Source of the DNA: Syntrophomonadaceae bacterium | Lineage (GTDB): Bacteria > Bacillota > Syntrophomonadia > Syntrophomonadales > Syntrophomonadaceae | NCBI GenBank assembly: GCA_012729715.1 | Contig: JAAYCQ010000062.1 | Coordinates: forward strand, 1-36,086 | Reading direction: 5' to 3' | Length of the DNA stretch: 36,086 nt | Part shown: piece after piece, positions 1,392 to 10,309 of the stretch | Position numbering within the stretch: the stretch's first letter is position 1 | Layout of the letters: every line of letters begins with the position of its first letter | The notes under the pieces: model-generated | The model's database searches: none | What the model saw: only the letters and a program-made list of their open reading frames with translations | What the model was told of the DNA's origin: nothing | Program-made: the position numbers and the translations under genes

Positions 1392-3563
1392 ATGAAACTG
1401 CCGACTATGTTTATCAACACTCCCGGTCCAATTCGGAAATGGCGATATATATTGGTAGCTGCTTTATCCTTGAGCTTATTTCTTGGTTTTATGTTTGTAT
1501 CTGAAGCAGAGGCGGAAGTTTCACCACTGCTTCAGGGAGGACAGATAACCCTTTCTGGTGTAGTCGGTGATACCCAAATCTATCCTCTGGGTAATAGCTA
1601 TATGCTGATTAGCAAGGAATCAAAAGATAAGGAAACTGACCTGTTACTTGAAAAGCTGACTGCTAAAGGCCAGCGTGAATGGAGCTTGCCTTTAGCTCAA
1701 CCTGGTGAGGAAAAGCTGGAATTAATGCAAATGGTCGGTAATGATATAGTAATTATCCTATCAACGTCGGGTAAGGCTGGGTTTTCTTATCGAATGTTGC
1801 GTTTGGACGGTACGGGCAAGATAATATGGCAAAGGAACCTGCCCCTAAAAAAAGTAAGTACAATGAATACAACCAATGACGATGGTCTAATCGTAATTGG
1901 GGTTAAATCTTCGGGTATTGGGCGTAACAGCCTGGTAGCCCTGAAAATGGATAATAAGGGTTCCTGGAATGCTGTTGCCGATGATGTTTCCAGATGGGAA
2001 GTTACTCTGGGAAATGAGAACTATTGCCAAATATATGACATAAAACAGGTTTTGGACCAGAATGACTACAATGACGGCTATATCATAGCCGGATACAAAC
2101 AAATGGGCGGGCAGAATCAAAAAGATGCCATGCTGATAAAACTGGATACCTACGGACGACTCTGTTGGCAGCATACCTACAGCCGTGCCGGGAATGACGA
2201 AGCTTTTTCCGTAACCCCTTTGCGTGATGAGAATAAAAATCTTACCGGCTATGCATTGACGGGATACTGTACCCGTATCAACGGACAGGAGATGTATCTG
2301 CTGCACACAGGTACAACCGGCAGCCTGAATCGTTGGCCCGGAATCGACCGGGCGATTGATGGCGATGCGGTAAAATTCTATGGTAGGGGTTATGAAACGG
2401 TTGGAGTTGGAGTATATCCGGTCCCCAAATCGTTTGAAGGTTCGCGTACCATTGGCAAAGAGAGTTTTGATGGAGATGCCGGTGTATTGCTGGTTGGATT
2501 ACAGACCATAGAAACCGAAAAAAAATTACTGGTAGTACGTATCAGCGAAAAAGGACGGGACAAGTGGGAATCCCGGCAGGATATCCCCGGGGAAACGCTT
2601 ATAATGGGTGAAGCCAATCAGGCCAGCACTGTTCAGCTGAATGTAGTTTATAGTTCAAGCGTACCGGATGATTTGCAGGAACCCATTACGGTTAATCTGT
2701 TAAAGCTGTATATGCAAAATGTCAGTGAAAATGATAAAACTAAAAGCCAAACGGAGGTATATACTCAGAAGACCGAAGACATGCTCTGGGAAACAGTTAC
2801 TTTAACCTATGAAACACCTGAAGATAAAGCGGGTCGTACCGAGGATATCAAAAAATTGCTGGCCAGGCAGTCGGTTCCGGCACTGGTTAGTCCACGCAGC
2901 GGCCGGGGAGAGATAAATTGGCCGGATACCAGCTATTATCTAGGTAATTTAGTAATCGGAAAAGCTGATGGGGAAGGGACCCTGCTGTTCCCCAATGGTG
3001 TATGGTATAAAGGTGCCTGGAAAAATAATATGTTCAACGGTAAAGGTTATCTGCGTTTTCCCACGGGAGAATATTACCAGGGTGAGTTTAAGGAGCATAT
3101 GATGAAGGGTAAAGGCATAATGAGCTGGCCTACCGGTGAAAAATATGAAGGTGAGTTTCTCAATAATCAGCGTGATGGCCAGGGCAAATTAACTTGGAAG
3201 AATGGAACCTTCTATGAAGGTGGATTTAAGGAAGGTCAAGCCTCCGGCATGGGTCTTATTCGCTGGCCCAACGGTGAACGCTACGAAGGGCAGATGACTG
3301 GTGGCAATGCAACTGGTCAGGGCAGTTATTACTTCCCCAGCGGTGAGTGGTACCGGGGAGAAATAGCAAACCTGGCCTTTGAAGGTGTGGGAGTTTATCA
3401 CTGGCCGGATGGTTCGTACTATGTGGGTGAATTCAAACAGGATCGCTTGAACGGCGAAGGTTATTATGTATGGCCTAATGGGGTGCAACAGTGGGGATAC
3501 TGGAAAGATGACCGTTATCTGGGTACCAATCCCGATGCCGTTAAGACGAGAGAGAACTGGTAA
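1392..3563 (+). CDS. Exported protein with N-terminal hydrophobic segment, propeller-like middle and C-terminal MORN repeats
   Basis: Signal/TM-like segment (YILVAALSLSLFLGFMFVSEAEA), propeller-like motifs (DGYIIAGYKQMGG...DAMLIKLDTYGRLCWQ), then about 8 repeats of about 23 aa such as GEYYQGEFKEHMMKGKGIMSWPTGEKYEGEF. Confidence 0.8.
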   Translation: MKLPTMFINTPGPIRKWRYILVAALSLSLFLGFMFVSEAEAEVSPLLQGGQITLSGVVGDTQIYPLGNSYMLISKESKDKETDLLLEKLTAKGQREWSLPLAQPGEEKLELMQMVGNDIVIILSTSGKAGFSYRMLRLDGTGKIIWQRNLPLKKVSTMNTTNDDGLIVIGVKSSGIGRNSLVALKMDNKGSWNAVADDVSRWEVTLGNENYCQIYDIKQVLDQNDYNDGYIIAGYKQMGGQNQKDAMLIKLDTYGRLCWQHTYSRAGNDEAFSVTPLRDENKNLTGYALTGYCTRINGQEMYLLHTGTTGSLNRWPGIDRAIDGDAVKFYGRGYETVGVGVYPVPKSFEGSRTIGKESFDGDAGVLLVGLQTIETEKKLLVVRISEKGRDKWESRQDIPGETLIMGEANQASTVQLNVVYSSSVPDDLQEPITVNLLKLYMQNVSENDKTKSQTEVYTQKTEDMLWETVTLTYETPEDKAGRTEDIKKLLARQSVPALVSPRSGRGEINWPDTSYYLGNLVIGKADGEGTLLFPNGVWYKGAWKNNMFNGKGYLRFPTGEYYQGEFKEHMMKGKGIMSWPTGEKYEGEFLNNQRDGQGKLTWKNGTFYEGGFKEGQASGMGLIRWPNGERYEGQMTGGNATGQGSYYFPSGEWYRGEIANLAFEGVGVYHWPDGSYYVGEFKQDRLNGEGYYVWPNGVQQWGYWKDDRYLGTNPDAVKTRENW

Positions 3564-3605: not shown

Positions 3606-4727
3606 TTATGGCAATAAAACTAAACTACTCTTTAAAGCGTTTGAAACAGCCGACCTGACCATTGGTACCGAACCATAGGATAGCGTTTCCAGAGTTGGAA
3701 TATTATCACCTTTTTCATGTTGCAGGAAGCCGGCGTCAATCATTTGTTGGTCAATCAAATACTGCAGTGACATTTCCATAGTAAGCATACCAAACTGGCT
3801 GCCGGTAAAAATAGCGTTGGGTATCTGATGATACTTGCCATCTCTAATGAGATTACGGATGGCATTGGTGCAAATCATTAATTCAGTTGCCACTACCATA
3901 CGTTCATTGGTTATATTGGGAAGCAAACGCTGTGATATGACTGCTCGCAGGCAGTTGGCCAATTGTACCCGTATCTGCTGCTGATGGGTGGAGGGAAAAA
4001 CATCTATCATGCGCTCTACCGTTTGAGCAGCGTTGATGGTGTGCAGAGTGGCTAATACCAGATGTCCCGTTTCTGCTGCGGTGATAGCGGTAGAAATGGT
4101 CTCCAGGTCACGTAATTCACCAATCATAATTACATCCGGGTCTTGACGCAGCGCAGCCCGCAGGGCCTGGGCGAAATCTTTGCTGTCCATACCGATTTCC
4201 CGCTGGGTGATATAACTTTTTTTATTCTGGTGAATGTACTCTATAGGGTCTTCCAGGGTGACAATATGACAGGCGCGTTCACTGTTTATAATATCAATCA
4301 TAGTGGCCATAGTAGTTGATTTACCATTGCCGGTAGGTCCGGTTATGAGGATAAGCCCGCTGGAATAGCGGGCCAGCGAAGCAACCGTTACTGGTAATCC
4401 CAGGTAGTCCAAATCAGGAATCTTTGTCTGGATGATGCGCGCCGCTATGGCCACCATTCCCTGATGACGATAAATGTTGACGCGAAAATTTCCCACATCT
4501 TCAATCCGGTAAGAAGTATCAATCTCACCTTCCACCATAAACACCCGGTGGGCCTTATCACCAAGTATTTCCAGTGCCATTTGTTCCAGTTCTTCTTTTT
4601 CTAAAACAGTATCATTAAGTTCAATCAAACGGGTATTAAAGCGGATAATCGGCGGCGTCAGTGGGGACAGATGAACATCTGAAGCTCCGCGGTCAACCGC
4701 TGCTTTAAGGATTTCATTTAATTGCAT
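3606..4727 (-). CDS. pilT: PilT-type type IV pilus retraction ATPase
   Basis: Walker A GPTGNGKST, TLEDPIEYIHQNKKSYITQREIG, ALRQDPDVIMIGELRD, HLVLATLHT. Confidence 0.93.
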   Translation of the reverse strand: MQLNEILKAAVDRGASDVHLSPLTPPIIRFNTRLIELNDTVLEKEELEQMALEILGDKAHRVFMVEGEIDTSYRIEDVGNFRVNIYRHQGMVAIAARIIQTKIPDLDYLGLPVTVASLARYSSGLILITGPTGNGKSTTMATMIDIINSERACHIVTLEDPIEYIHQNKKSYITQREIGMDSKDFAQALRAALRQDPDVIMIGELRDLETISTAITAAETGHLVLATLHTINAAQTVERMIDVFPSTHQQQIRVQLANCLRAVISQRLLPNITNERMVVATELMICTNAIRNLIRDGKYHQIPNAIFTGSQFGMLTMEMSLQYLIDQQMIDAGFLQHEKGDNIPTLETLSYGSVPMVRSAVSNALKSSLVLLP

Positions 4728-4743
4728 AATTACACTCTCCCTA

Positions 4744-5592
4744 TCAAGTTAATACTAATTCTCTAATCTTAACTATCTTTATTAAGAGCACTCCCAGGCT
4801 CAGGCCGGCAATTATTAGATACAGCCAGGGCAATAAATGAAGAAAGGTTCCGGTTTCAGGGTTAGCCCGCAGACAAAACAGTCCCAATCGTGTGAGTGAA
4901 TATAGTCCCGCGGTAAGTAAGAAAACGAATCCAGGCATGGCTTTTTTGCGAAGTAAGTACAATGCCATAAATAATAAAATAAGAGCAATACCACTTTCAT
5001 AAAGCTGTACAGGATGTATCCTGTCCGAATAGACCTGCCAGGACTGCCCCTGTAGATTGTTAAAAGCTTGAACAATGTAATAATTATAAGCCTGGCTCTC
5101 TGAAGCGTAATGGATTCCCCAGGGCATAATAGTAGGTGTCCCAAAACAGCACCCATTGAGAAAACAGCCGCTTTTACCCAGAAAGGCACAGCTCATTAAT
5201 CCCGGGATATGATAATCCAGCCAGTTCCATACCGGAATACGGCTCAACCAGGCTGCTGCCGTAGCATATATAACCACCATGAGCAATCCGCCATAGAGGG
5301 AAAAACCATATAGTTTCATGTCAGTAAGATGAACAGATGGGTTGCTTAAATTAACATATAAAAGCAAATAGAATAAACGAGCGCCAAAAAGAAAGACCAG
5401 GGGTATAGCCGTAATATAAATTAGTGTGTTATACCGGTTAAGCCTATTGTGTTGGGCAGCATATACCGCAAACCCAATTAAAAGCAGCATACCCGCGATG
5501 TTTAAAACGAGATATTCCCAATTCTGAAATGATTCCATGTGTATTATGGCTATAGCTAACATAAATTCCTCTATTAATACTTTCTTGCTCAA
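4744..5592 (-). CDS. Lgt-like (prolipoprotein diacylglyceryl transferase family) membrane protein
   Basis: Multi-TM; GKSGCFLNGCCFGTPT, PWGIHYASES, RIHPVQLYESGIALILL match the Lgt signature pattern with a Cys-rich variant. Confidence 0.75.
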   Translation of the reverse strand: MSKKVLIEEFMLAIAIIHMESFQNWEYLVLNIAGMLLLIGFAVYAAQHNRLNRYNTLIYITAIPLVFLFGARLFYLLLYVNLSNPSVHLTDMKLYGFSLYGGLLMVVIYATAAAWLSRIPVWNWLDYHIPGLMSCAFLGKSGCFLNGCCFGTPTIMPWGIHYASESQAYNYYIVQAFNNLQGQSWQVYSDRIHPVQLYESGIALILLFMALYLLRKKAMPGFVFLLTAGLYSLTRLGLFCLRANPETGTFLHLLPWLYLIIAGLSLGVLLIKIVKIRELVLT

Positions 5593-5595
5593 ATG

Positions 5596-6285
5596 CTATA
5601 AACCACAGGTGAATCCGCCACCGGGAGCAGTAGGAACAAATAGCTGTACCGTAGTCCGGTAGAGGATACGATCACCCGGAGTGCAATTAGTGGTTTGTGA
5701 GTATAGTGACTCAGCGCTAATAGGAAATCCACTGCCTTCGAGCATATTGCTTATCAGTACAGCTGAGTTGCTGGAATAAATAACCGCCTTTTCTGGAATT
5801 CCGTCTCCATCCTCGTCTGCTCCATCCTTGTCCTTATACCGGGCCTTAACGGAAAACTTGAGTGAATTGTCCAAATAAGAATCAGGTATATTATTATCGG
5901 CCGGTTTGGAAAAGGACAGTTCCAGGGTGCTTTTTTCTGTGTGCGCAATGGTTGTATCAACATTACCGGCAGCTGTGATTTCACGTAAAACAATATCCCC
6001 AGCGTTATTAATAAATATAAGGCGGTCATTCTCCTGAACCTCAGTGCTGGCCCAATCATCAGCTTGCTTGCGGATTTCCAGGTAACTGGCGTAATTTACT
6101 TCATTGGTAATCACCAGACTGGCGAGCCGTACTGCTGCTTCCGCTTCCTGTCTTATTACATAATTTTCCCAGGCCTTCAGCCCGTAAGCAAAGGCATTAT
6201 AACCGATTGCCAGAACTACTGAAATCAGAATAATGGTTAAGAGAAGTTCTACCAGAGAAAATCCACGCTGGTCAGCTTTTAACAA
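5596..6285 (-). CDS. Type IV prepilin-like protein (PilW/GspJ-like)
   Basis: N-terminus LKADQRGFSLVELLLTIILISVVLAIGYNAF: canonical prepilin motif with Glu5. Confidence 0.8.
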   Translation of the reverse strand: MLKADQRGFSLVELLLTIILISVVLAIGYNAFAYGLKAWENYVIRQEAEAAVRLASLVITNEVNYASYLEIRKQADDWASTEVQENDRLIFINNAGDIVLREITAAGNVDTTIAHTEKSTLELSFSKPADNNIPDSYLDNSLKFSVKARYKDKDGADEDGDGIPEKAVIYSSNSAVLISNMLEGSGFPISAESLYSQTTNCTPGDRILYRTTVQLFVPTAPGGGFTCGL

Positions 6286-6322: not shown

Positions 6323-8824
6323 TTAGCGCAGACAAGCAGCTAATAAATCAGTGGTGGTATCTGAATTTCCAGGATCCCAATCGGCGGAATTATCTTTGGC
6401 GTAATATATGTTGCCGCCGCTGCCTACGACCAACAGGGTTTTTCCATAAGGATAATGAACAATATCATTCATAAAAAAGTAGGTTGGACCCGAAAACTCC
6501 TTTTCACGTGTATGATTCCCCGGCTCCTTTAAGCCGACGATATAACTTTTTTTAGCAGTTTTGACTGTGTTGTCATCTAACAGGGCCACAAAACGGCTCC
6601 CGGTAAAGAGCATGTCTTCCAGGGTATATTGAACCGGTTTGGCCATGATAGCATTTAGTTTTTCGTTATCCTGCTTGATATCGTTAGGATTATCAAAATA
6701 AATCAGGTTGCGGCGATCTCCTCCGGCATACAGTACCCCGTCATCGTCACAGGCTACCGCATTCAATGGGGCCCCAACAGCAGGGTTGGTGTTACTGCCA
6801 CTGCTGCCAGAGCCGGAACGATCTCTCCATACTGTAACCTGGTTGGCATCCGCAAAGGTTAAAGAGTTAGCATTCAACCATAGTGGGAGTGGTACCCCCC
6901 CCGTTGAATCCAGGCACAGACCTGGATAATTGGTGGGATGTTTGTAAAATGGCCAGTATTTATAATCTCCGAATAGGATTTTTTCCTGCCATGTAGACCA
7001 ATCCATTGTACCTAATCGGGGTGTATAAGTACCACCGTGATAATACAAAGCATCAATCTCAGCCTCATTGACTAGTTCAATACCGTACTTGACGGATAAA
7101 TACTTATTGACAATATCCATCTCGGAAGCAAATGTTACGGATACAGGTATTAAGCCAATCCAGATAGTACCGGGGTGTCTGGTACTATCCAGGGCTCCAT
7201 CAAAGATAAAAACCTCGGCTATTGAACCGGTAAAAGGCAGGGGGTTAGTATAACTGGTCAGGGGATTGCTTCCTATCTGAGCAGGATCATTGGTGCCGCC
7301 GGGAGTTATACTGCCGATATTTAGAACTTCCGGTAAAGAAGCATTCTTGTACAGGCGCACATCGGGAGCTTCATAGCGACAGGCTATAATTGAAGCTGTA
7401 TCGTTGGCCAAATCCAAGTTGTGGGTTACCGGAGGTGCCGGAAAAACATTATCAGGGCTGGTTCCCACTACCAGTTTTTGATCATCATTGGTCCTGAAGG
7501 TAAAATAACTATCAGATGACCCCAGGGTCAGAAGACTGGTATTAACCGGTTCCCCGGTTGGTTGGACAACCATAAAGACAGTGAATTTATTATCTGCATT
7601 GGTTACCGGGTTTTGCCGGGTTTTCAGGTATTCCCCTTCACCCGAGAAAGCTACCGCTTTTCTGCCATTAATATAATCTGCCGCCGCAACCATCAGGGGA
7701 TTGCTGTGCAGCCGGGTCCATGTCTCAGTATTGGAGGAAGTCAGCATAATCCCGTCGTCACCCACACAAAAATATCTACTATTTGTTTTATTGTAAGTTA
7801 TAGCACGCAGGTTGGAGGTAGTTCCTGAGGTTCTTGTAACCCAGCTTTTGCCATCGGTGGAATGAAGAATTAACCCACCATCTCCTACAACCAGCCAATC
7901 ACCGGCACCAACTGCCACGATGTTATTCAAATTGGCAGTGATACCTGTTAAAGTTAACCTTTGCCAATCCTTTCCGTTCTCCCAGAGGTAAATACTGCCG
8001 CTATTACCTACGGCAATAAATTGAGCCGATCTATCCGAAGCGCCAGCGGAAACAATTTTATTAATCTGATAAGTAAAATTGGTGTCCTTCTTGACCCAGT
8101 TGCTATTGCCGATGCTATCAACCCAGTTATCGGGATTGGGCGATGAAGCTATCAATAAATCTCCGTTGTTATCGGCAATAACGGCACGCGGCAGATGAAC
8201 CATCAGCAGAGACGTCAAATCTTTTCCGTCAGTAGTTACCGTGATGGTATACAGGCTATTAAGGTTGGTAAAACGGTCACTGACAGTGGGAAGGGTAATA
8301 GTTGCTTTTTCTGCGCTGATGACAGGAGAGCCATCAAGATAACCTGTAACATCATTATTGTTTTTATCAGTAACTTTTACGGTGGAGGTATCTGTAATGG
8401 ATTTATCCTCTATGGTGATTATAGCCTCTTCAGCGGTATAGCCTTCATAGCGTTCAAACAGATCATACTCGGAACCAAGGTTTGAAGCCAGGAAACGTAT
8501 CAACTTGGACTTTTTTACGGTCATACCCGGAACCCAGGTTGTTTCTCCATCCAGTAGAACCGGGAAAAAATCTTTGGGTACAAAGGTACCATCTATTAAA
8601 TAAGCGCCGTCTTTGGTTACGGCTATTATCTCAATATCCTCCTGAACCCCAAACAACTGAGAGGCAATGGTGCTGGACTGATTAACAACCTGCAAACTCT
8701 GAGTAACCAGGGGGAAAACAGCAATCAATAGCATTCCCAGTATTACCAGGGCTACCAGGATTTCCACCAGGGTCATGCCGGAATAGTTTTTTAATGGTTT
8801 AAGCACTTTTTCCATATAAATCAC
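6323..8824 (-). CDS. Very large prepilin-like protein (833 aa) with propeller and LamG/concanavalin-like domains
   Basis: NYSGMTLVEILVALVILGMLLIAVFPL; propeller blades (FIAVGNSGSIYLWENGKDW, WLVVGDGGLILHSTDGKSW, YFCVGDDGIMLTSSNTETW); LamG-like INGRKAVAFSGEGEYL...GSIAEVFIFDGAL...VNKYLSVKYGIEL. Confidence 0.85.
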   Translation of the reverse strand: MIYMEKVLKPLKNYSGMTLVEILVALVILGMLLIAVFPLVTQSLQVVNQSSTIASQLFGVQEDIEIIAVTKDGAYLIDGTFVPKDFFPVLLDGETTWVPGMTVKKSKLIRFLASNLGSEYDLFERYEGYTAEEAIITIEDKSITDTSTVKVTDKNNNDVTGYLDGSPVISAEKATITLPTVSDRFTNLNSLYTITVTTDGKDLTSLLMVHLPRAVIADNNGDLLIASSPNPDNWVDSIGNSNWVKKDTNFTYQINKIVSAGASDRSAQFIAVGNSGSIYLWENGKDWQRLTLTGITANLNNIVAVGAGDWLVVGDGGLILHSTDGKSWVTRTSGTTSNLRAITYNKTNSRYFCVGDDGIMLTSSNTETWTRLHSNPLMVAAADYINGRKAVAFSGEGEYLKTRQNPVTNADNKFTVFMVVQPTGEPVNTSLLTLGSSDSYFTFRTNDDQKLVVGTSPDNVFPAPPVTHNLDLANDTASIIACRYEAPDVRLYKNASLPEVLNIGSITPGGTNDPAQIGSNPLTSYTNPLPFTGSIAEVFIFDGALDSTRHPGTIWIGLIPVSVTFASEMDIVNKYLSVKYGIELVNEAEIDALYYHGGTYTPRLGTMDWSTWQEKILFGDYKYWPFYKHPTNYPGLCLDSTGGVPLPLWLNANSLTFADANQVTVWRDRSGSGSSGSNTNPAVGAPLNAVACDDDGVLYAGGDRRNLIYFDNPNDIKQDNEKLNAIMAKPVQYTLEDMLFTGSRFVALLDDNTVKTAKKSYIVGLKEPGNHTREKEFSGPTYFFMNDIVHYPYGKTLLVVGSGGNIYYAKDNSADWDPGNSDTTTDLLAACLR

Positions 8825-8839
8825 CCAGCCTATTTATAG

Positions 8840-10309
8840 TTATTTATAGAAAAACAGAACATCATAATAGGAAGCTACATCATCGTTGGTTGCAGGAATG
8901 AGATAGCCTTTTTCCAGCAGAGTTTTCAAACGGCAATCGTTTTCGGTTGCTGTCCAGCCAAACAAATCGGCTATATCGGAGAAGGTATTAGGCTCAGTAC
9001 CTATGCCCAGGGCTTTTTCACCCATGACACGGAAGAAAAATGACTTATTACTAATCTGGGCAGGGTCATTATCTTCAAGGTTACCAACTAAAGAACCATT
9101 AATCACGACATTATTAAACCTGACCAGTCCGTATTTGGCGGTCAAATTGATTTTGGCTAAATCGACCTTTTCTGCATCGGGTCTTGTTTTATTGGCATCT
9201 ACTACCCGCTTATGCACGACTTCGCCAGGTATTCCTGTGCCTGGAGGAATGCTCAGGGTCAGGTTACCGAAAGCAGAATCGCCTATGGTAAGATTCTGCT
9301 GAAATACGATGGTTTCCGCACAAACAATCAGACTGTGGGGATTAGGAACAGCTTTGACACTGAGCGGTATTAACGAAGTATTATAATAAAGATCAAGGGG
9401 ACAGTTAAATCTTATGCGTTTGGCCTGCAGACCGGTAACCGAATAATTAAATAAGTCCTGATTGAGTAGATCGGCATTTCCTGCGAGTGCTTGAAATATA
9501 AAATTTATCACGTCTATCATATATAAAAACGTATTTCCAAGACCTGAAGTTCGAGCTTCAATCTCCTCCCGCAGGGTACCGTTGGCATAGAGGGTTTCAT
9601 CGGAAGCAGTTACAGTATCTGTATTAATTTCCACAATACCTTCAGTTACGTGGTAGGTAGCAGTATACTCCTGACCATTCTTGTCAGTGACAACTCTGCT
9701 GGACGGACCCGGTATAATAGTCCAATTGTACCATTTGTAGGGGGGGGTTAATGAAATGCCTAATAAAGAGTTTATTTGGGATTCGTATTCACGGCATTCA
9801 TACCATGAATCACCACTTGTAACATCAGCATCATTCAATTTTTCTGACTCAGCGGTTACCGTTGCCGAATGGGAACCTATGCTGACCGTAGAAGTTACGG
9901 TACAGATACCTGCACTGGCGTCAAAGGTTTGTACTGTTGTGACGATGCTGTCCTGGCCTGCATTGGCAGCAGTCTCCTCTTTAAACTCGTTGTCGCCGGA
10001 ATCATAACGGGTATAAAAAGTGAAATTTTCATCTGTTGCACCGATGCCGGTATATTTGCTGGGGTCAGCCAGGAATTTAGCCGTCCAGGCTTCCTTGGTA
10101 GCGTCCACGGCAGAGCGGGCCAGGTATTTGCACCGCAGATCCGGATTCAGCCTGGTGGATTGCTTGAGCGAACTCTGGCTGGCAGTATAGGCAGTTGTAC
10201 CCAGCAGGGTAAATACCACCAGCAGCATTAATACCAGTGGCAATGCTATACCGGAATTATTAAGCAGAGGTGACTTTTGCCGAGCCCATCTGTTATTTAC
10301 CAAATTCAT
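8840..10309 (-). CDS. PilX/GspK-like minor pilin protein (489 aa)
   Basis: LLNNSGIALPLVLMLLVVFTLLGTTAYTASQSSLKQSTR...LARSAVDATKEAW; pilin-like N-terminal helix without Glu5. Confidence 0.7.
   Translation of the reverse strand: MNLVNNRWARQKSPLLNNSGIALPLVLMLLVVFTLLGTTAYTASQSSLKQSTRLNPDLRCKYLARSAVDATKEAWTAKFLADPSKYTGIGATDENFTFYTRYDSGDNEFKEETAANAGQDSIVTTVQTFDASAGICTVTSTVSIGSHSATVTAESEKLNDADVTSGDSWYECREYESQINSLLGISLTPPYKWYNWTIIPGPSSRVVTDKNGQEYTATYHVTEGIVEINTDTVTASDETLYANGTLREEIEARTSGLGNTFLYMIDVINFIFQALAGNADLLNQDLFNYSVTGLQAKRIRFNCPLDLYYNTSLIPLSVKAVPNPHSLIVCAETIVFQQNLTIGDSAFGNLTLSIPPGTGIPGEVVHKRVVDANKTRPDAEKVDLAKINLTAKYGLVRFNNVVINGSLVGNLEDNDPAQISNKSFFFRVMGEKALGIGTEPNTFSDIADLFGWTATENDCRLKTLLEKGYLIPATNDDVASYYDVLFFYK

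Follow-up and report, generated by a model that had tools for sequence, protein, structure and literature searches.

Circular permutation, in which a protein or domain keeps its parts in a changed order, has been described in a few well-known systems. In concanavalin A, a ConA-like jelly-roll lectin as is the domain described here, the order is permuted relative to its homologues, favin and other legume lectins (PMC3320104), but the change is post-translational and involves the whole protein, whereas in the present case it is encoded in the gene itself and affects a domain that is nested within another. Gene-level permutation is shared with saposin/swaposin and similar cases, generally ascribed to duplication followed by trimming (PMC3320104). 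In contrast to those, the change presented here occurred inside a host domain, and no duplicated intermediate is known. Most known circular permutations lie between distant proteins, and their origin is consequently guessed.

The closest counterparts among pili come from the modular pilins, of which more than 1,200 have been counted in 264 architectures (PMC8179133). PilC of Streptococcus sanguinis, from a Gram-positive-type pilus system, shares with our protein a pilin N-terminus and a ConA-like lectin module; this module binds glycans and has been modelled and predicted at the pilus tip (PMC9934059). In PilC the lectin is appended through a short linker, whereas here it is inserted in a propeller and permuted, and the likeness considered here is one of architecture. 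The PilY1/PilC tip adhesins of diderm type IV pili have a beta-propeller in common with our protein (PMC8179133), but they are not pilins. Searches with Pfam and NCBIfam models found no PilY1 family match in the protein of the window.

In the neuraminidase of Vibrio cholerae, one lectin domain is inserted between the blades of the propeller. A fold comparison with our propeller model recovered this enzyme (6eks) among bacterial and trypanosomal sialidases, which combine a propeller with ConA-like lectin domains. These sialidases gave low overall TM-scores and are not pilins, the analogy being restricted to the fold level, and no sialidase family match was found in the protein of the window. 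In the open-licence literature, we found no paper on permuted LamG domains or on permuted domains nested in propellers.

In this work, we describe a gene of a Syntrophomonadaceae bacterium whose product is very probably a type IV pilin of the modular kind. Its propeller, predicted to be seven-bladed, houses a nested LamG domain, circularly permuted in the clade to which this genome belongs. The window, that is, the whole stretch of DNA that was analysed, comprises 36,086 nucleotides of contig JAAYCQ010000062.1. Its open reading frame 8824-6323 on the minus strand encodes 833 amino acids and runs uninterrupted across both LamG joins. The gene, its parts and its same-strand neighbours are organized as follows:

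8840..10309, minus strand: PilX-like pilus assembly protein, upstream neighbour (PilX_N E=0.0035, a weak match below the cut-off)
6323..8824, minus strand: prepilin-like protein of modular build, its beta-propeller interrupted by the permuted LamG (833-aa ORF)
8714..8791, minus strand: N-terminal type IV prepilin cleavage/methylation motif, residues 12-37, SGMTLVEILVALVILG (Pfam N_methyl PF07963)
8195..8713, minus strand: pilin body and Ig-like linker region, characteristic of the host family, about residues 38-210 (profile A1)
7703..8194, minus strand: beta-propeller blades 1-4, about residues 211-374 (AlphaFold2 four-strand units, blades counted by eye)
7073..7696, minus strand: LamG C-part, placed first, residues 377-584, LMVAAADYINGRKAVAF...YLSVKYGIEL, canonical model positions about 46-222 (PF13385 and canonical LamG profile)
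6893..7072, minus strand: linker bridging the former C- and N-termini of the LamG, residues 585-644 (boundaries from the order-restoring analysis)
6782..6892, minus strand: LamG N-part, placed last, residues 645-681, PLPLWLNANSL...VTVWRDRSGSGS, canonical model positions about 3-40 (profile, score gain and orthologue model)
6326..6781, minus strand: beta-propeller blades 5-7 and closing strand, residues 682-833 (AlphaFold2 strands, collinear in orthologues)
5596..6285, minus strand: second prepilin-like protein, downstream neighbour (PF07963 29.6 bits; TIGR02532 28.3 bits)
4744-5592, minus strand: Lgt-like gene of the prolipoprotein diacylglyceryl transferase family (Pfam LGT 107.6 bits)
3606..4727, minus strand: PilT-family retraction ATPase (TIGR01420 424.6 bits, cut-off 319.1)

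The N-terminus of the 833-aa protein carries a class III prepilin signal and N-methyl motif with Glu5 (G|MTLVE), recognized by PF07963 (E=2.9e-6, 27.0 bits against a cut-off of 21.2) and by TIGR02532 (16.8 against 16.3). The propeller and the LamG are additional, non-pilin modules, as is proper to a modular pilin. Because a PilX-like protein, another prepilin, an Lgt-like membrane protein and an ATPase of the PilT family are encoded alongside the gene on the same strand, the region is a pilus gene cluster. Moreover, a PilX-like homologue is found upstream of the host gene in all members with readable flanks (L039-L044). The Lgt-like protein of the cluster scores far below the NCBIfam equivalog cut-offs; a separate, stronger Lgt (221 bits) is encoded on another contig of the same genome, and the cluster copy also adjoins the host orthologues in three further genomes (G030, G014 and G023, named below). 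Next to the pilus cluster, but on the plus strand, the window encodes a MORN-repeat protein of 723 aa (1392-3563; Pfam 112.9 bits, six stretches).

The initial annotation had placed the usual N-terminal motif of LamG after its usual continuation, at 6782-7697. The Pfam family Laminin_G_3 (PF13385) recognizes the C-part, with a match that spans residues 395-547 (E=2.6e-9, 37.8 bits against a cut-off of 27.6). We compared the protein with a canonical LamG profile of 222 positions, built from 72 domains of viral contigs, a phage, a plasmid and two pilin/surface proteins. Model positions 46-207 matched residues 382-548 (41.9 bits) and positions 207-222 matched residues 567-582, with positions 3-30 appearing only later, at residues 648-673. 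The profile thus matches in swapped order, at coordinates that fit the annotated ones well. Taken by itself, the N-part gave 1.5 bits in the window protein (G000), a weak match, and 7.0, 18.9 and 6.2 bits in the orthologues of G002, G030 and G014, respectively.

The annotation had also claimed that swapping the joins restores the canonical order, and the scores agree. With the N- and C-parts joined canonically, the best single-domain score rose to 57.2 bits in the window protein and to 58.7, 47.4 and 58.1 in G002, G030 and G014, compared with 44.5, 39.5, 29.7 and 43.6 for the native LamG order and 46.1, 41.1, 31.3 and 45.0 for the C-part without the N-part (same order of proteins). Among 300 control joins per protein, in which the N-part was shuffled or replaced by other segments of the same protein, the top scores were 47.7, 43.7, 34.0 and 53.0. 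Restoring the order therefore added 11-19 bits to the score of the native order or of the C-part alone, against 1 to 8 bits for the best controls, and produced one single match from model position 2/3 to 207/208. The swapped LamG order in the window protein is thereby confirmed: the domain departs from the canonical N-to-C order by having the C-part followed by the N-part, which makes it a permuted member.

Given five sequences, AlphaFold2 modelled the propeller well within residues 204-833, as repeated four-strand units with pLDDT mostly 76-93. Counted by eye, and hence with modest confidence, the strand pattern corresponds to seven units and a closing C-terminal strand, with blades 1-4 before the LamG and blades 5-7 after it, in accordance with the annotated interruption of the propeller. 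Foldseek matched this propeller model to the seven-bladed 7bid (TMt 0.53) and to YCF48 (5ojr). In the same five-sequence run the LamG core of the window protein was of moderate quality and its N-part was left unplaced (pLDDT about 30).

For the G014 orthologue, the permuted LamG unit was modelled as one compact domain of 295 residues (pLDDT 82.3, pTM 0.86), from an alignment of 51 rows into which canonical N- and C-fragments were entered as separate rows. An alignment of 94 rows was discarded, its N-fragments being misplaced. In the model, the N-part forms the strands 254-265 and 270-276 (pLDDT 92-95), and the linker is the weakest inner part. Foldseek matched it to ConA-like folds, namely laminin G modules, neurexin LNS domains, pentraxins, sialidase CBM40 domains and other lectin-like modules found within larger proteins. 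The full jelly-roll, N-terminal strands included, is thus present in the model of the G014 orthologue and not in that of the window's own protein; with this scope, the permuted LamG is confidently predicted to fold as a single domain, as expected from the annotation.

A search for relatives in either order recovered both. The host protein (profile A1, pilin body and Ig-like region, full-length matches) is found in seven of the 54 family genomes, five with the permuted and two with the canonical order. The permuted order is kept, at 38-83% identity, in five Syntrophomonadaceae genomes that include that of the window. Syntrophomonas sp. UBA5432 (G002), of the same genus as the window genome, has a full-length homologue (residues 1-833, 83% identity); it is followed by Syntrophomonadaceae bacterium AS10tlH2TH_207 (G030; residues 10-833, 46%) and Syntrophomonas sp. 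DTU018 (G014; 43%). In Syntrophomonadaceae bacterium AS06rmzACSIP_353 (G023), the gene extends over two contigs with an identical overlap of 42 residues (48% identity across the first part). The canonical order occupies the identical site between blades 4 and 5 of the orthologous gene in AS06rmzACSIP_426 (G013; L006/L043) and in Syntrophomonas palmitatica JCM 14374 (G031; L007/L044), in both cases flanked by a PilX-like gene and a pilin gene. One terminal piece has been relocated, all pieces have been kept, and both orders exist in orthologues at the same site, which is what defines a circular permutation. In S. palmitatica, the frame of the canonical-order copy is split within the LamG into two overlapping frames (about L044:7415-7522), which may reflect a sequencing error or a broken gene. 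A pilin-like match in G001 was rejected as a host orthologue, being a different pilin.

Canonical LamGs were searched for in the 54 family genomes, and matches were obtained only in G013, G031, G061 and G014; neither tandem LamG arrays nor duplicated intermediates (N-C-N-C) were seen among these genomes. In G061 (L060), of the same genus as G014, a pilin-like protein ends in a canonical-order LamG, with no propeller in the part read. Since this pilin also ends in a LamG, LamG-bearing pilins occur more than once in the family. Plasmid-borne glycosyltransferases of Priestia (e.g., L066 1432-3225) have an N-terminal LamG-like stretch, 40.8% similar to the LamG of the G061 pilin, that aligns with the C-part only of the latter (query residues 80-224). 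A profile of the permuted LamG found no match beyond the window in a phylum sample of 399 genomes, and a PDB sequence search with the canonical LamG returned nothing relevant.

In an order-corrected LamG tree, the five permuted LamGs were grouped with support 99/96, and an unrooted tree of the host proteins split the permuted from the canonical types with support 100/99. As each of the two trees unites the permuted forms, one permutation event suffices, and we infer a single permutation at this site in their common ancestor. The LamG tree, in which branches are long, leaves the nearest kin of the permuted LamGs unplaced among the canonical LamGs of the same host protein and those of G061 and G126. 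A tree of blades 5-7 was discarded for its implausible branch lengths.

The initial annotation had also pointed to a short CCCTG-like motif at both joins. CCCTG is indeed present at both (7694-7698 and 6781-6785, minus strand), but it has no evidential value. The window contains 133 copies of it, it is gone from the second join in the 83%-identical G002 orthologue, and the remaining permuted members with readable junctions lack it there; the likeness between the joins is therefore coincidental. The linker between the old ends measures 60 aa in the window protein and 35 aa in G014. Strings of the type L-x-x-I-x-Y and W-x-x-W, noticed by eye, raised the possibility that it is a remnant of a duplicated propeller blade. 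This was rejected, a blade profile giving no signal above shuffles on the linker, although the test is a weak one, blade 6 itself being missed by the profile. We found no trace of the route of the permutation, be it duplication with trimming or another. Permutation by duplication is the textbook route (PMC3320104) and would be the default here as well.

The window genome is fragmented in 298 contigs, and a misassembly or a recent recombination might have joined parts of two genes in one contig, an option that the initial annotation had raised for two pilin genes. However, the order and both joins recur at corresponding places in G002, G030 and G014, on other contigs of other assemblies and at 43-83% identity, and also, in separate pieces, in G023. 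The gene is collinear and conserved, the two halves of the propeller belong to one host protein, and the junction motif is neither rare nor conserved. Because the permuted order is conserved across independently assembled genomes, the sequences exclude an assembly artefact, and the joining of two genes has practically no chance of being correct. Five independent assemblies with the same order, together with canonical orthologues at the same site, speak for the other option of the annotation, a natural circular permutation through domain insertion. One might still suppose that the stretch WLNA...WRDRSG lies outside the sandwich, as a leftover or a separate small element, and that the C-part folds without the first strands. 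Residues 395-547 alone satisfy Laminin_G_3, and the stretch was left unplaced in the five-sequence AlphaFold2 run. We consider this very unlikely, however: all five permuted members have retained the motif, the restored order forms a single match (model 2/3-208) with gains above those of all controls, and the compact G014 model includes the stretch at the pLDDT given above.

An alternative that deserves somewhat more weight, but that we still regard as rather unlikely, is that the permuted and canonical clades each gained their own LamG between blades 4 and 5, the permuted clade by taking a "C-linker-N" slice from an array of tandem LamGs. Such a slice would yield the permuted order in one step, and the LamG tree, with its long branches, does not decide how the permuted and the canonical LamGs of the host are related. 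Two independent insertions would nevertheless have to hit an identical site in orthologous genes with the same neighbours, and the tandem array they call for is unseen in the family genomes. The direction of the change also has to be considered. Five genomes from four genera have the permuted order, against two genomes from a single genus with the canonical one, which, with an unrooted host tree, would fit a host protein that was permuted from the start, the canonical order of the S. palmitatica type being a later reversal or replacement. We give this only a slim chance, considering that the 72 LamGs of the profile, including those of pilins and phage proteins, are all canonical. The permuted order is probably the derived state, as judged from this generality of the canonical order, to which the G061 pilin also conforms, rather than from a host-gene outgroup.

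Our favoured reading remains that of a nested LamG permuted within its propeller. Under it, the first two strands of the LamG, some 37 residues, would have been relocated from its front to its back, with the old ends bridged by a linker of 35-60 residues and the former loop after the first two strands becoming the new tether to the propeller. The moved piece corresponds to one two-strand unit. In a sandwich, the beginning of its first strand and the end of its second are expected on a common edge, and a cut shifted from the former to the latter would keep the two tethers together there, as an inserted domain requires. The new ends thus probably emerge on the edge used by the old ones, and the propeller could then have taken the LamG without refolding. 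On balance, we lean towards a nested LamG that was permuted in place within a single bacterial family, by a shift of exactly one two-strand unit and with its tether points kept on the same edge, and towards orthologous pilus adhesins that still use both orders at the identical site.

The permuted LamG presumably still works as a lectin. By analogy with PilC of S. sanguinis, the protein is most likely located at the pilus tip, where lectin and propeller would act as an adhesin towards glycans, surfaces or the partner cells of methanogenic consortia; this role is the least certain step of our proposal.

Circular permutations and lectin-bearing pilins were both already known, but it is unusual, and makes for a clean case, that orthologues carry the two orders at one and the same nested site. 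With both orders available at one site, it becomes feasible to test the route of the permutation, the structural rule of a shift by one two-strand unit and the functional consequence for a lectin at the cell surface. The modular pilins of syntrophic bacteria are also seen to comprise an architecture, a lectin nested in a propeller, that Pfam and NCBIfam annotate only in part. If our interpretation is correct, these pilins would represent a natural experiment on how the permutation of an inserted lectin alters its orientation and binding.
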